In this document: piece after piece, positions 30,163-35,968 of the stretch
Position numbering within the stretch: the first letter of the stretch is position 1
How the letters are laid out: the number at the start of each line of letters is the position of its first letter
Source of the DNA: a virus
Direction: 5' to 3' (one strand)
IMG/VR virus record: IMGVR_UViG_3300047323_000547
Location: 1-39,685 of that record
Length of the DNA stretch: 39,685 nucleotides
The notes under the pieces: generated by a model
What the model was told of the DNA's origin: nothing
Seen by the model: only the letters and a program-made list of their open reading frames with translations
The model's database searches: none
Made by a program: the position numbers and the translations under genes

Positions 30163-30797
30163 CCGAGGCGGACTATGTTCAAAAACTTCGACAAATGTTG
30201 CCACCGGGGCCGGCGTTTGATCCCGAGCTAGAGCCTGATTGGGCGCAGATCGTGGCGGGCCTAGCCCCTGAACTGGCCCGGGTCGAGGGCAATGGCGAGG
30301 CGCTGTTGCTGGAGTTGAACCCGGCCACGGCCACGGTCTTGCTGCCGTATTGGGAAACCTATTTGGGCTTACCGGATGTGTGCACGGTGCCCGGCTCGCA
30401 AACCTTGGAAGAGCGCCGCCAAGCGGTGCTCGACAAGCTGACCGCCACCGGTGCGCCGCAGTTGAGCTATTACCGCAAGCTCGGCACGCAGTTGGATATC
30501 GCCGTCGAAATTCAGGAGTTTCGCCCGGCCCGGGTAGGCCTGACCAGCGTCGGCGATTTTTTGTATGGGGCGGGTTGGCCGTGGAGCTGGATCGCTTCGG
30601 TGCCGATTCAAACGTATGGCACCGAGGCCGCGGCCGCGCTGGATTGCAGGCTGCAGCGGGACGCGCCGGAATACACCGACGTGGTCTTGGGATTTGGCAA
30701 CGATGTCGTCGCCGGCATCACGGCGAAAGCGGACCAACTGTTCAACGCCATTCATTACGTGGTGCCGGCCGCCGTGGCCGGGATCGAGGATCTATAA
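30153..30797 (+). CDS. DUF2313/YmfQ-type tail protein (Mu gp48-like)
   Basis: The 214-residue protein starts MALTEADYVQKLRQMLPPGP, and has the family motifs ELNPATATVLLPYWETYLGL and TLEERRQAVLDKLTATGAPQ. It is the baseplate component to which the fibres attach in Mu-like tails, and it precedes the fibre gene here. Confidence 0.92.
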   Translation: MALTEADYVQKLRQMLPPGPAFDPELEPDWAQIVAGLAPELARVEGNGEALLLELNPATATVLLPYWETYLGLPDVCTVPGSQTLEERRQAVLDKLTATGAPQLSYYRKLGTQLDIAVEIQEFRPARVGLTSVGDFLYGAGWPWSWIASVPIQTYGTEAAAALDCRLQRDAPEYTDVVLGFGNDVVAGITAKADQLFNAIHYVVPAAVAGIEDL

Positions 30798-30798
30798 C

Positions 30799-31527
30799 AT
30801 GCAGAGAATTTCCAGCTGGACCGATTTGGTCGCCGCCCTGGGGCTCTTTCGTTACGGTACCGTAGCAGGCGGGGTCGCACCCACACCGCTCAAGGCAGAA
30901 TGGCTGAACATGGTCCAGGAAGAACTGGCTAACGCCATCTTGGCTTATCTGCCAGCGCTTGATGCCAATGATCCCACGCAACTGCTCAAGGCTATTCAAG
31001 CCTCGGGTGCAAACTATGCGCTGAAAGCCACCACCTTGGCCGGCTACGGCATTCTGAATGCCTACACCAAGCCTGAGACCGATTGGCTGTTGTCGCAGAA
31101 GGCTAACAACGCGATCACTCTGGCCGGCTACGGCATTGGTGATGCGTACACCAAGGCGGTGATCGACGCCGCACTGGCCGCCAAGCAAGCGGCTATCGAC
31201 AACTTAGCCGCGACCAAGCAGGACAAGAACACTGCGCTGATGGCGGCCAATGGCTGGCGCCTGGATAAAGCCACGGGGCTGCTGGAGCAGTGGGGCAGCG
31301 GCTACTGCGGCCCGAACGGTGTAACCCCCGCCATGGACTTCCCGACGCCCTTTGCCGAGGTCTACAACTGCTTCGGCAATAAGGTGACGCCGAACGATGA
31401 GGATGGCGATGCCAACGGAGCCGGTGCGCTGGCTATCAGCACCACGCAGTACCAGCTGTTCAATGACACCGTGAACTTTGGCGCCACCATTCATTGGCGG
31501 GCGATTGGTAGAGCCCCCGGTTATTAA
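30799..31527 (+). CDS. Tail fibre protein with gp53-like C-terminus
   Basis: The start is the ATG at 30799 (MQRISSWTDLVAALGLFRYG), just after the gp48 stop. The 242-residue protein has two copies of a TLAGYGIxxAYTK repeat (about 79-91 and 107-119), which is common in phage fibre shafts, a short coiled coil (about 123-140) and a C-terminal receptor-type domain (GWRLDKATGLLEQWGSGYCG onward). No fibre chaperone gene follows. It probably binds the bacterial surface or carries the spike protein downstream. Confidence 0.88.
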   Translation: MQRISSWTDLVAALGLFRYGTVAGGVAPTPLKAEWLNMVQEELANAILAYLPALDANDPTQLLKAIQASGANYALKATTLAGYGILNAYTKPETDWLLSQKANNAITLAGYGIGDAYTKAVIDAALAAKQAAIDNLAATKQDKNTALMAANGWRLDKATGLLEQWGSGYCGPNGVTPAMDFPTPFAEVYNCFGNKVTPNDEDGDANGAGALAISTTQYQLFNDTVNFGATIHWRAIGRAPGY

Positions 31528-31551
31528 GTTCTAACTAACTATGTTTTGCGC

Positions 31552-31573
31552 AACCCGCTTCGGCGGGTTTTTT
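31552..31573 (+). terminator. Terminator after the tail fibre gene
   Basis: AACCCGC, loop TTCG, GCGGGTT and a T run. It separates the fibre gene from the spike gene. Confidence 0.82.
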
Positions 31574-31592
31574 ATTGCCAGGAGCAAACTGA

Positions 31593-33611
31593 ATGACCGA
31601 TATCGCAGCGCTGGAAAGCTACGCGGGAGAGTTGTCGGAAGCGGCACAGCGCTCGCAAGCGGCTTCTGCAAAACAGCATCAATATATTCATAACGATGCC
31701 ATGACCGATGTTGTGACTGAGGCGGGGCCGGTGCCTTCGATTGCGAAGCAGGCTCGACTCTATCTTGAATCGATCCCGAATGCGGCGGCCGATCTTAGTG
31801 CGCTCATGGCTGACGGAAAAATCTACCCGGATGAAGCGACCGGTCGAGCGAGTCCAACGGTTAGCGATGGGATGTTGTTTTGGGCGGCCAGCACCAATCC
31901 ACGTGTCTTGAGGACGTTGTGGAAGAAAGTGGACAGCGGTAGTTCGCTGCATATCTCCGATGACGTCAGTAAGACAGTCGTCGATGACCTTTCCAGCAGG
32001 GCTGACCGTGATGATGCGCTAGGGTTTTACCGGGATGGCGTTTCAGAGTTCGCCTTCCCGATCATGGACCCCTTGGGTCAGGTCATTGGTTTTTTGGCGA
32101 ATGGAGGGGTGCTGGCGACTCACCTTGAGGTGCCTTCGATGGCCTCGGTCCCTTCCAGGGATGGGCCGTCAGGGATCCCCATTATTCAATCGTTGGTCGA
32201 TCGCAAGAACGGCATCACCTTCAATCCCGACGATGGCCGGACCGATCTGTTGTTGTCTGACAGCGCGATTAAGTTCATCGCGCAACAACTGAGCGGCGTT
32301 TCGAGCTACCTGCCGCTCACGGAAATGCGCGGTTCCTATGCGGTGTCTTCGGTTCGGCGAACCACAGCGTTCAATATCGCCGCGATTCAGGACCGCAGTG
32401 GTCAATCGTATGACGGGAAGCAAAGGGCCACGGGTTCTTACGACACCATCGTGATCGATCGCAAGGCGCCGATGCGATTCCGGGGAATGATCGGGCAGTC
32501 AAATTCTCTGGGGGCATCCAGCCCTGGCATCCTCGAAGGTCGGCCGTTGTTTCCTCATACGGTGTTGTCGTTTGACGGCCGTTTTTTTATGCAGGGATCA
32601 AATGGGCTGGTGAACGGGGAAACCTTGACCGATCTGGTGCCGCTGTACGATGCGGCTGTCGGCCTCGGTCAATGGCCGGCGGCCCTGGCAGCATTCGCCT
32701 CCGCGCAGGCGTGGGCAGACGCCGGCCTTCCTCAGGTCGGCCAAGTCGTGGCGACGGCGGGCCAAGGTGATCAGCCAGCCGCCAGCTTTTTATCCGGTAC
32801 GGTGAACTGGACCAATTTGATGACCTTTGCCGGCCGGGCCAAAGTCTGCGCCGCCCTCTACGGGCGCACCATTGAATGCCGGCACCTGACCTACATTCAG
32901 GGTGAAAAGTCGGATAACTGGTACGCCGATTTCAATACCTTTGTCGACACCGTCATCCCTGCTCTGAAGACCCAGCTCGGCCAGACCAGCCTGATGGAGA
33001 TTGCCCTGTGGCAGACCGTCGGCGTGGCGCCGGATAACGGTGTCGGTCAACTGCAGATTGCCGCAGCGGATGCGCGGACTGACGTGAAGCTCTTCGGCCC
33101 GATGTACATGCTGCCGGTCAGTGATCTTCAGCATGCCAATGCCTTGGGCAAGATGTTGATGGCCGATATCCATGCAGCAGTGGAGGTCCAGATCGAACTG
33201 GGCAGGACGTGGAAACCCCTGCGGATGCGCAGCGCTGTGCGGGTCGGTACGACCGTTACCCTCACGGTGGACTTGCCGCCCGGGACCACCAGCACTGCCA
33301 AAGATCAGGACTGGCTGCCGCAGGTCACTCAGGATGGCTTTGTGTTCCGCGACAGCAACGGCACCACTGCGATCACCGCCATTATGTATGCCGGGGCCAC
33401 CATCACCTTGACCCTGGCGGCTGTGCCAACGGGGGGCAGTCCGGTTGTTCGGTACGGAATGGATTACGGCCTAGGGGCTGGCTACTACTCCATGGCAGGC
33501 AACGCCATTGCCATGACCGAGACACCGTCTTTTTACCATCGCCTGGGGCATCCGGTGCCGAAGTTCATTCGGCATAACCTCTTGCGTCAACAAATAGGAG
33601 TCACCGTATGA
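31593..33611 (+). CDS. Tail spike with SGNH/sialate-esterase-like domain
   Basis: The 672-residue protein has an N-terminal helical region (MTDIAALESYAGELSEAAQR), a central linker and an esterase domain from about residue 285. The motif MIGQSNSLGAS holds the putative nucleophile S303, YIQGEKSDNWY (Q436-G437-E438) matches the second conserved block, and SDLQHAN supplies D511 and H514. These match sialic-acid acetylesterase-type SGNH hydrolases. A C-terminal beta domain follows (about 535-672). It probably deacetylates a surface polysaccharide during adsorption. The substrate is unknown. Confidence 0.78.
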   Translation: MTDIAALESYAGELSEAAQRSQAASAKQHQYIHNDAMTDVVTEAGPVPSIAKQARLYLESIPNAAADLSALMADGKIYPDEATGRASPTVSDGMLFWAASTNPRVLRTLWKKVDSGSSLHISDDVSKTVVDDLSSRADRDDALGFYRDGVSEFAFPIMDPLGQVIGFLANGGVLATHLEVPSMASVPSRDGPSGIPIIQSLVDRKNGITFNPDDGRTDLLLSDSAIKFIAQQLSGVSSYLPLTEMRGSYAVSSVRRTTAFNIAAIQDRSGQSYDGKQRATGSYDTIVIDRKAPMRFRGMIGQSNSLGASSPGILEGRPLFPHTVLSFDGRFFMQGSNGLVNGETLTDLVPLYDAAVGLGQWPAALAAFASAQAWADAGLPQVGQVVATAGQGDQPAASFLSGTVNWTNLMTFAGRAKVCAALYGRTIECRHLTYIQGEKSDNWYADFNTFVDTVIPALKTQLGQTSLMEIALWQTVGVAPDNGVGQLQIAAADARTDVKLFGPMYMLPVSDLQHANALGKMLMADIHAAVEVQIELGRTWKPLRMRSAVRVGTTVTLTVDLPPGTTSTAKDQDWLPQVTQDGFVFRDSNGTTAITAIMYAGATITLTLAAVPTGGSPVVRYGMDYGLGAGYYSMAGNAIAMTETPSFYHRLGHPVPKFIRHNLLRQQIGVTV

Positions 33612-34369
33612 GTATTGCTGGAATCCGGATCAATCAACCCTTTAACAACGATGCGCTGAGTGTGGGTGGCTCGCGGGCGGAAGCGCTCCTTGGTGATGTT
33701 CACCTGGTTAATTGGTTTCAGGCGGATCCCCGTAGCGTGGATCTGGATGGTGCCGAGATTATTTCCTTTACGGATAAAAAGGGAACGGGGGCCAAGTTCA
33801 CCCGGGCGAGTTCGGCCAACTCGGCGACGCTGGCCAACGGCTTGTTTGGAATCTACCCGGGGGCCAGGTTCAACGCGTCGGAATCCGACAAATCGGTGTT
33901 CTCTGGGGCCGCCTCCAATCTATCGCTGCCGTTTACCTGGGCGGGTGTAGCGACGCTTAATAACAATGCGGCTGCTGCCAACCTGATGGGTACGTTTACC
34001 AGCACCACGGTTCGATCGATTCTGAACGTATCCGGTGGAACGGCGGCGATGCGACTGCAATTTGGCACGGTGAGCACCGGCGCGCTCGCCATCCCTATCG
34101 GCCAGCCTTTCGCCTTCGCCGCTGGGTTCGATGGCACCAACATTTTTTTGATGGTCAATGGAGCAGTGAGCGTTGTTGCGGCGGCCGGCGCTCCTAGCAT
34201 TTCGGCCTTGAGCCTTGGTGCGTTGCCTGGAGGAGGCCAGTTCTGGGACGGCAATGTGTCCGACATTTTTATCTGTGATATCGCCTTGAACAGCCCGGCA
34301 CCTGCAGCCACCACGTTGCTCAGCAAGATTCGAGGCTTCACCCAAAGGGCCTATGGCCTAAGTGCCTGA
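33608..34369 (+). CDS. Lectin-like (LamG-type) tail-associated protein
   Basis: The 253-residue protein overlaps the spike stop by ATGA and is co-expressed. Strands such as HLVNWFQADPRSVDLDGAEI, FTWAGVATLNNNA, QPFAFAAGFDGTNIFLMVNG and GGQFWDGNVSDIFICDIALN follow the concanavalin/LamG sandwich pattern. It probably binds glycans as an adhesin or spike partner. The family assignment rests on pattern, not on catalytic residues. Confidence 0.6.
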   Translation: MSIAGIRINQPFNNDALSVGGSRAEALLGDVHLVNWFQADPRSVDLDGAEIISFTDKKGTGAKFTRASSANSATLANGLFGIYPGARFNASESDKSVFSGAASNLSLPFTWAGVATLNNNAAAANLMGTFTSTTVRSILNVSGGTAAMRLQFGTVSTGALAIPIGQPFAFAAGFDGTNIFLMVNGAVSVVAAAGAPSISALSLGALPGGGQFWDGNVSDIFICDIALNSPAPAATTLLSKIRGFTQRAYGLSA

Positions 34370-34388
34370 TCAATTCCCGCTATTTATT

Positions 34389-34412
34389 GCCCGCCAAGTG
34401 CGGGCTTTTTTT
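34389..34412 (+). terminator. Terminator before the endolysin gene
   Basis: GCCCGC pairs with GCGGGC, followed by seven T residues. Confidence 0.83.
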
Positions 34413-34428
34413 CGCCTGGAGAAAAGCT

Positions 34429-34854
34429 ATGACAGCAACCGAAATAGACCGAGACATCTTTGCGCGCACGCTGTGGGGTGAAGCTCGAGGGGAGGGGCTA
34501 GCTGGCCAGATCGCTGTGGCCTGGACTATCCGCAACCGCGTGAACGACAGCAAGGCCAGGTCCTGGTGGGGCGAGGGCTATGCCGGTGTGTGCCAGAAAC
34601 CGTATCAGTTCAGCTGCTGGAACAAGAACGATCCGAACTTCGTCTACCTGAGCGGTGCTAAGCCGATCCCGTTCCGCGAGTTTGCTCAAGCGCAGATCGC
34701 CGCTGAACAGGTGATGACCGGCAAGGTGCCAGATCCCACCGGCGGGGCCACGCACTACTACGCAACCACTTTGCCGAAAGCACCGGCGTGGACGGTGGGA
34801 GCGAAAAAGACATTCCGACTCGGCCACCACGTCTTTTTCAGGGATGTGCCGTGA
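34429..34854 (+). CDS. Endolysin, SleB-like cell wall hydrolase
   Basis: The start is the ATG at 34429 (MTATEIDRDIFARTLWGEAR) behind CTGGAG. The 141-residue protein has the Hydrolase_2/SleB features: LWGEARGEG with the candidate catalytic Glu, AVAWTIRNRVND, and CQKPYQFSCWN, followed by GATHYYATTLP. It degrades peptidoglycan once the holin opens the membrane; there is no signal peptide. Its stop overlaps the GTG of the Rz gene. Confidence 0.9.
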   Translation: MTATEIDRDIFARTLWGEARGEGLAGQIAVAWTIRNRVNDSKARSWWGEGYAGVCQKPYQFSCWNKNDPNFVYLSGAKPIPFREFAQAQIAAEQVMTGKVPDPTGGATHYYATTLPKAPAWTVGAKKTFRLGHHVFFRDVP

Positions 34855-35363
34855 GCCCCGCGTCGCTGAAGTTGGCGGTCGCAGGCGTGCTGGTCCTAAT
34901 ACTGCTGACGACTGGGATTACCTGGAAGGTGCAGGACTGGCGGTACGGCAGGCAGCTGGCGGAACAGGCTGGCCTGCACCAAGACGATTTGACTGCCATC
35001 AGTAACGCTGCAGCGGGGCAAGTCCTCGCCGATCAGGAAAAGCGCCTGGCGCTGGAGCAGCGCTTGTCTACCAGCGAACAATCCCACTACAAGGAACTGA
35101 GCGATGCTCAAACCAACCAGGCTCGCTTGCGCGATCGGCTTGCTACTGCTGATCTGCGGCTGTCAGTCCTCCTTACCGAAGGTCCAACCGGTGGCAGTTC
35201 AGTGCCAGCCGGTACCGCCGCCGGCGGCGTGGTTCATGGCGCCACAAGAGCCCAACTTGACCCTGCGCATGCTCAACGAATTATCGGCATCACCGATACC
35301 GGCGACCAAGGACTAATAGCGCTGGCTGCGTGCCAGGCGTACGTGTTGAATTTAAGGAGATAA
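34851..35363 (+). CDS. Rz-like inner-membrane spanin
   Basis: A GTG at 34851 overlaps the endolysin stop and gives a 170-residue protein starting MSPASLKLAVAGVLVLILLT, with one membrane helix (about 5-24) and a long periplasmic coiled coil (about 30-105, LALEQRLSTSEQSHYKELSD). It fits i-spanins that join with Rz1 to fuse the membranes at lysis. The Rz1 gene lies wholly inside it in the +1 frame. Confidence 0.85.
   Translation: MSPASLKLAVAGVLVLILLTTGITWKVQDWRYGRQLAEQAGLHQDDLTAISNAAAGQVLADQEKRLALEQRLSTSEQSHYKELSDAQTNQARLRDRLATADLRLSVLLTEGPTGGSSVPAGTAAGGVVHGATRAQLDPAHAQRIIGITDTGDQGLIALAACQAYVLNLRR
35104..35316 (+). CDS. Rz1-like outer-membrane lipoprotein spanin, nested in Rz
   Basis: The 70-residue product has a lipoprotein signal (MLKPTRLACAIGLLLLICGC) with a lipobox before C20 and a proline-rich mature part (QCQPVPPPAAWFMAPQEPNL), typical of o-spanins. 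It is fully embedded in the Rz gene in another frame. It should be acylated and act from the outer membrane. Confidence 0.88.
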   Translation: MLKPTRLACAIGLLLLICGCQSSLPKVQPVAVQCQPVPPPAAWFMAPQEPNLTLRMLNELSASPIPATKD

Positions 35364-35391
35364 AAAAAATCCCCGCATCGGCGGGGATTTA
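35361..35391. terminator. Bidirectional terminator between lysis genes and leftward cargo
   Basis: ATCCCCGC, ATCG, GCGGGGAT with an A tract on the left, so it works best for the leftward membrane-protein genes and weakly for the late operon. Confidence 0.83.
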
Positions 35392-35392
35392 G

Positions 35393-35968
35393 TTAACTGC
35401 AAAAGTTTCTTCGCTCGTAAATTTGATCAATTTCGTCATTAGAAAAGCTCACCATTCCCATTGCTTTTTGCAATCTGACGGGAGCTTTCTTTACAAGATC
35501 GATATTCAAAACCTTGTGCCGAGTCGCATAATAAATGAAGCGCGTTGCGCTACTGTGCGATAACACCATTTCTGAATAAGATGAGTAGAAGCTTTCAACC
35601 ATTTTTGAAACTTCTTGAATTTCTAACTCTTTAGAATTCAGAATGTTATCTGTTTCCTGTCTAGCTTTCTCGAAGGCTACATTTAGGTCGACTTTGCTAT
35701 TGTTTTTCAGGAACAAAAATGCCTTGTATGCTTGGTCAATGCCAATGTTGGGTGCATATTGCAAGAGCATGTTTGTTCTTTTGTAATAGTGTTTGAAAAT
35801 AACAGAGTCTTCGCTAACCACTCCTTCCGAAACCAAACGAATCAGCTCATCGCGCACCGCATACATATCGTATGTGGCTTTGGTGCGCCGCAGTCTATTC
35901 ATCACCACTATGAATCCAGTGGCTGCGACTGCCCCAAGGGCTAAAAACACCAAGAAGATGTCTATCAT
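35393..35968 (-). CDS. Membrane-anchored cargo protein A (191 aa)
   Basis: The product starts MIDIFLVFLALGAVAATGFI, one membrane helix (about 3-22), then a basic turn and a helical cytoplasmic domain (about 35-190) with AVRDELIRLVSEGVVSED and FEKARQETDNILNSKELEIQ. There are no catalytic motifs. The gene is much more AT-rich than the phage body, transcribed against the late genes, and overlaps its partner by ATGA. This is the position and look of a lysogenic-conversion gene, perhaps superinfection exclusion or defence; this is inference. Confidence 0.65.
   Translation of the reverse strand: MIDIFLVFLALGAVAATGFIVVMNRLRRTKATYDMYAVRDELIRLVSEGVVSEDSVIFKHYYKRTNMLLQYAPNIGIDQAYKAFLFLKNNSKVDLNVAFEKARQETDNILNSKELEIQEVSKMVESFYSSYSEMVLSHSSATRFIYYATRHKVLNIDLVKKAPVRLQKAMGMVSFSNDEIDQIYERRNFCS

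Follow-up and report, generated by a model that had tools for sequence, protein, structure and literature searches.

A probable two-subunit tailspike encoded by an SGNH esterase gene and its overlapping concanavalin-A-like neighbour in a phage with a Mu-like baseplate

The closest described counterpart of the gene pair reported here is the tailspike of Pseudanabaena cyanophage Pan3, a podophage of a cyanobacterium according to the available text of PMC9837993. Structure entry 9vyh contains three chains of the Pan3 spike and three chains named 'tailspike gp15', a protein of 270 aa encoded 1 nt after the spike gene (gp14). Escherichia coli phage G7C also carries an SGNH esterase tailspike, gp63.1 (4qnl), cited as a lipopolysaccharide deacetylase in the accessible part of PMC13123978, where two Klebsiella prophage SGNH fibres are reported to be active on p-nitrophenyl acetate. 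Aristophanes gp41 is likewise a deacetylase, as told in the portion of PMC11058221 available, and the Aristophanes tailspike deacetylase is described in the available portion of PMC8471582. In the same portion of PMC11058221, fLi-Aba02 and fLi-Aba03 are described as having two separate fibres, one SGNH and the other concanavalin-A-like; of the papers cited here, it is the only one whose available text names both domains in one phage. The GDSL esterase that adjoins the tailspike of Vibrio phage Peru-2 (PMC13320782, partial text) was considered and set aside, being a separate 473-aa protein in a different arrangement. A literature search conducted mostly outside subscription journals found no paper on 9vyh and none that describes these genes as a single, conserved device of two subunits.

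The locus lies in a virus record of 39,685 bases, all of which was analysed and is referred to here as the window. It encodes terminase, portal, protease and major head genes, together with tail genes for sheath, tape measure, hubs and Mu-like baseplate J and gp48 proteins; the sheath and Mu-like baseplate genes indicate a contractile-tailed phage. The order 3' of the baseplate is short fibre, spike, overlapping second gene and cell-wall hydrolase. A DNA search with window positions 14000-38000 matched four phage records (three Pseudomonas and one Burkholderia), none at more than 22 % coverage. In Pseudomonas phage DVM-2008, whose tail cluster is Mu-like and matches the window at 71 % in the sheath region, genes for tail fibre and fibre assembly proteins stand between the baseplate genes and the lysozyme. 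The features of the window, with related loci identified by L numbers, were as follows.

30799..31527, + strand: separate short tail fibre of 242 aa with a Gp53-like_C domain, outside the pair (family match)
31552..31569, + strand: terminator-like hairpin and T run, 5' of the spike (terminator scan)
31593..33611, + strand: SGNH-type esterase tailspike of 672 aa, PHROG 4201 tail fibre (ORF, profile, motifs and fold)
31593..31805, + strand: spike residues 1-71, N-terminal part and putative virion anchor (outside the 95 %-identity stretch shared with the L005 spike)
32493..32504, + strand: GQSN motif, residues 301-304, with putative nucleophile S303 (sequence and alignment)
32898..32906, + strand: QGE motif, residues 436-438 (sequence and alignment)
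33123..33134, + strand: DLQH, residues 511-514, with putative catalytic D511 and H514 (sequence and alignment)
33596..33600, + strand: AGGAG, probable ribosome-binding site of the second gene, within the last codons of the spike (sequence)
33608..34369, + strand: putative second subunit of 253 aa with a concanavalin-A-like (LamG-like) fold (ORF, weak Pfam match, model and fold match)
34389..34405, + strand: terminator-like hairpin and T run, 3' of the second gene, common to L005-L007 (terminator scan)

The two hairpins bracket the spike and second gene as a unit, with only the downstream one common to L005-L007, and nine terminator-like sites were observed in 30700-35500 against 4.7 expected. 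No sigma-70-like promoter was found by scan between the short fibre and the spike; given the hairpin at 31552-31569, the spike may need its own promoter or read-through. The short Gp53-like_C fibre upstream is a candidate for a second receptor-binding protein, so that the phage probably has two adhesion devices. Few of the genomes searched have either gene of the pair. Among 398 Pseudomonas genomes the second protein occurred in one, which was the seed, and among 369 genomes of the class PHROG 4201 occurred in two, again including the seed. The second protein had no match in the plasmids searched, nor by DNA in E. coli genomes.

The original prediction described the spike as a sialate O-acetylesterase-like SGNH protein with S303, Q436-G437-E438, D511 and H514 as its active-site set. 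All of these residues occur at those positions, in the GQS / QGE / DxxH arrangement of SGNH Ser/Asp/His esterases, and family, motifs and fold all support the assignment. GQSN, QGE, D511 and H514 were invariant in an alignment of 11 homologues including the window spike, the other ten rows being 23-86 % identical to it and three of the rows near-duplicates. A separate 19-row alignment of more distant spikes retained Q-S, QGE and H as invariant; the Asp was absent from its list of invariant and near-invariant positions, reflecting either a real change or misalignment. The PHROG 4201 (tail fibre) profile matched residues 27-635 of the spike (E 8.8e-30). Pfam SASA (PF03629) gave no match to the window spike at E up to 1, so that it is not filed as a member of that family; among four other spikes, those of L021 and L044 exceeded the SASA cut-off, that of L013 fell below it and that of L012 had no match. 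PDB and Pfam sequence searches with the single window proteins gave nothing firm.

Both proteins were modelled with AlphaFold2, with middling confidence. The spike model had a pLDDT of 59.2 and was of low confidence at residues 303-360 and 508-515, around S303 and H514. Its best match among 998 aligned chains was the Pan3 tailspike, 9vyh_o (Z 27.6 over 348 residues, rmsd 5.2), followed by the FI8 deacetylase (Z 20.0), XAC1771 (19.2), PpCE20_II (19.1) and SIAE (18.4). The best matches of the model are thus SGNH esterases, with Z up to 27.6, in a model whose catalytic loops are of low confidence. SIAE and CE20-type acetylesterases (8f9o, 8f9p, 7kmm, 9ega and 9h4u) resemble spike residues ~255-671 in fold at Z 18-20; these are cellular enzymes, not tailspikes, and are not known to have a companion subunit. 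Together with the active relatives, the motifs and fold suggest that the window spike probably strips acetyl groups from the sugar coat of its host, which is probably a Pseudomonas, a surface polysaccharide being the presumed substrate.

The second protein was modelled as a concanavalin-A-like jelly-roll sandwich (pLDDT 65.7). Among 997 aligned chains its best match was 9vyh_p (Z 21.4, rmsd 2.5, 215 residues; next best Z 18.5), which was also ranked first in plain Foldseek. Such folds are common, 657 of the 997 chains having Z of 8 or more, and rows for clostridial neurotoxin binding domains in these searches were rejected as reflecting the common fold only. The original prediction had spoken of a coupled, lectin-like gene whose product looks like a glycan-binding sandwich. 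The lectin fold and the sandwich are borne out by the model; by sequence, the protein has a Laminin_G_3 (PF13385) match below the cut-off (E 0.0018; 18.9 bits against 27.6). Sugar binding is a suggestion from the modelled fold. For Laminin_G_3, the homologues in L013 (27.8) and L021 (34.2) passed, with those in L012 (22.1) and L019 (22.4) failing. A PDB profile search with the second-protein alignment returned chance-like rows only. The protein matched no PHROG, with no match to PHROG 4390 at E up to 1, and had no tail fibre assembly (Tfa-type) match in Pfam or PHROGs at E up to 1. An N-terminal motif, L-P or similar around residue 15, that recurs in 19 of 29 second-protein sequences was discounted, as the pattern was chosen after inspection.

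The predicted overlap of the two genes was confirmed, the ORFs sharing 4 nt (ATGA) with the second ATG inside the spike stop codon. AGGAG lies 7 nt 5' of this ATG, and overlap or close spacing with GGAG-type sites was also present in L005, L008, L012, L018, L019 and L021. This arrangement is consistent with coupled translation of the pair in vivo.

The locus resembles Pan3 gp14/gp15: an SGNH spike gene is followed directly by the gene for a concanavalin-A-like partner. Separate searches with the two window proteins each placed 9vyh first among 174,310 entries, which makes a chance agreement unlikely. The spikes are also related in sequence: the window spike profile matched the Pan3 spike with probability 96.9 (E 1.5e-10), and a profile of more distant spikes matched 9vyh_m at E 7.5e-11. 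The second protein, compared with gp15 by sequence, gave a probability of 0.7, so the likeness of the partners is in fold only. The window shares with the Pan3 type a homologous esterase spike and a same-fold protein encoded directly downstream. The two systems differ in that the Pan3 spike reads HGE where the window spike reads QGE, and in that the Pan3 genes lie 1 nt apart whereas the window genes overlap. G7C gp63.1 was a much weaker fold match than Pan3 (Z 10.9), and the gene directly downstream of it encodes 110 aa, with no gene of the second-protein type on that side. The window pair is likely to be a member of a kind with one solved structure, that of Pan3.

Relatives of the window locus carry the two genes together. 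In three IMG/VR contigs the spike is 94-95 % identical from residue 72 and the second protein 96-97 % identical; in L008 the values are 80 % and 67 %, and in Klebsiella phage P7641 33 % and 53 %, respectively. Identity with the three contigs ends at residue 72, and a gene related to central tail fibre J lies 5' of the spike in L005, L008 and L009, indicating that the enzymatic part and the second gene have been kept together whilst the N-terminus and the tail type changed. The second-protein profile found a match in 11 of 13 records; these were gathered through the pair, and some of them contributed rows to the profile. As to the remaining two, the L017 contig ends at the spike, and L021 has a diverged second gene that overlaps its spike by 4 nt and is the one noted above as passing Laminin_G_3. 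Ten IMG/VR contigs carried the spike, with the second gene adjacent in eight, separated by a 739-nt insertion in one and lost to a contig end at the spike in one. Across 26 pairs, distances between second proteins followed those between spikes (rank Mantel r 0.47, p 1 in 5001), after Ruegeria was dropped for want of a companion and L005 and L010 as near-duplicates. The correlation was 0.37 with the N-terminal part of the spike, so that the test does not single out the enzymatic part, and rho was 0.16 for the 274 distant row pairs alone.

At L010:4255-5003 and L013:5255-6003, a 739-nt segment separates spike and second gene. It is flanked by an 18-nt direct repeat, GGAGACGTTCGCATGATC, containing an ATGA junction, as if inserted into a formerly coupled pair. 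In L010 the segment holds a reverse-strand ORF of 212 aa with no Pfam match at E up to 0.1. L010 is Synechococcus phage Sc-Yong805-1. The second proteins of L010 and L013 are near-identical, and L013 has the same match figures as L015, a prophage locus of Pseudotabrizicola algicola. The latter is an alphaproteobacterium, and the stated cyanobacterial host of Sc-Yong805-1 may be doubtful.

A wider census comprised 18 phage regions picked by spike match for diversity: two of the 13 records of one search and 16 of the 60 rows listed (88 records) of another. L044 and L045, both from Acinetobacter phages, are close relatives within it, and L009, L010, L057 and L058, which were chosen through the second gene, were left out of the count. 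A gene of 238-266 aa lay directly 3' of the spike in 17 of the 18 regions, at gaps of -4 to +20 nt. PHROG 4390 ('unknown function') matched 15 of these 17 second proteins at E up to 0.01, that of L051 only at 0.0048; those of L062, which is closely related to the L051 protein, and of L063 had no match. The exception was Ruegeria phage 45A6, in which the next gene, 254 aa long after an 11-nt gap, encodes an unrelated DUF847 protein. As this gene has the same size and spacing in another family, size and spacing prove little, and the case rests on the family. Taxonomy of the census records includes Peduoviridae, Autographiviridae, Drexlerviridae and Vequintavirinae, and the baseplate of Burkholderia phage KS10 is annotated as similar to that of Mu. 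In one further region, L066, a 391-aa ORF with GQSNS (SGNH) has no such companion downstream; the preceding 276-aa ORF has, by eye, a stretch resembling LamG, and the order may be reversed here.

In the Acinetobacter phages SH-Ab 15497 and fLi-Aba02 (gp21/gp22) and in the Klebsiella, Serratia and KS10 pairs, a gene of the PHROG 4201 type is followed by one of the 4390 type, with the gene order, similar sizes and spacing of the window pair. The spikes are related to that of the window (profile match probability 100, E 2.4e-42), whereas their second proteins are only weakly like it. Second genes in other phages are usually labelled 'hypothetical', as most of these are, that of fLi-Aba02 being annotated as lectin-like. 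Compared as profiles, the second-protein group and the PHROG 4390-type group gave a probability of 7.9, and four other groupings 2.4, 3.6, 1.3 and 12.8; controls on the last of these (eight column-shuffled and one reversed) gave 0.0-0.1. The window-group profile did find the second protein of Klebsiella phage KPP5665-2, a PHROG 4390 member, at 22.3 bits (E 1.2e-07 for 28 sequences), with the unrelated Ruegeria protein scoring 3.9. Pfam detected little or no LamG signal in PHROG 4390-type proteins, and a PDB profile search with their alignment gave a single weak hit, to an S-layer domain protein (E 0.0014).

We consider it quite probable that the pair encodes a single two-subunit tailspike, in which a trimer of the SGNH esterase carries concanavalin-A-like subunits 3:3. 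A competing account makes the second protein a dedicated, Tfa-like helper in folding or assembling the spike, lectin-like in fold by chance and perhaps remaining bound at the tip. This would explain why its gene sits where DVM-2008 has tail fibre assembly genes, lies directly 3' of the spike in most regions seen and tracks the spike in its Mantel distances. We regard it as rather unlikely, though the strongest of the alternatives, because no known chaperone family was matched at E up to 1, the Pan3 counterpart is present 3:3 in the structure and G7C gp63.1 is not followed directly by such a gene. The original prediction that a separate lectin replaces the usual fibre chaperone holds as regards gene order; a second subunit fits better, given that the Pan3 counterpart is stoichiometric in the particle, and the second protein has the look of a virion component and not of a chaperone alone.

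An independent adhesin or decoration placed elsewhere on the virion and merely co-transcribed would agree with the treatment of fLi-Aba02 gp21 and gp22 as separate tail fibres in the available text of PMC11058221. This is improbable in view of the companionship of the two genes across tail types, from the sheathed Mu-like tail of the window to L005, L008 and L009 with their upstream gene related to central tail fibre J, and of the Pan3 counterpart belonging to tailspike entry 9vyh. Slightly more improbable still is a spike that is a dead esterase and merely binds polysaccharide: the loop after S303 and the D511-H514 loop are poorly modelled, but GQSN, QGE, D and H persist in homologues down to 23 % identity, and the Klebsiella SGNH fibres in the partial text of PMC13123978 are active.

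Under the two-subunit reading, the first protein would trimerize and anchor the spike to the baseplate through its N-terminus, and its C-terminal ~400 residues would fold into an SGNH domain of the sialate O-acetylesterase kind and a terminal beta domain. Ser303, His514 and Asp511 would together remove O-acetyl groups from surface polysaccharide during adsorption. Translational coupling across the overlap would supply the second protein in amounts that match the spike, and it would dock on the spike 3:3 as in Pan3 gp14/gp15, from which we infer both the trimer and the complex in the window phage; it would most likely help the spike to hold the polysaccharide and perhaps to fold.

What stands out in these results is how broadly such spikes are paired with PHROG 4390-type genes. 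A general two-gene rule, which we rate as likely as not, would be that PHROG 4201-type fibres of short, long flexible and contractile tails work as hetero-oligomers with the lectin-fold protein encoded by the gene that follows. PHROG 4390 and diverged relatives such as the window gene would then be the missing second subunit of deacetylase spikes, which would be incomplete alone. Through this pairing PHROG 4390 acquires a role open to testing, and the occurrence of a lectin-fold gene 3' of these spikes in unrelated phages would be accounted for. If the second subunit is needed, host-range prediction and recombinant tests that consider the esterase alone would miss part of the device.
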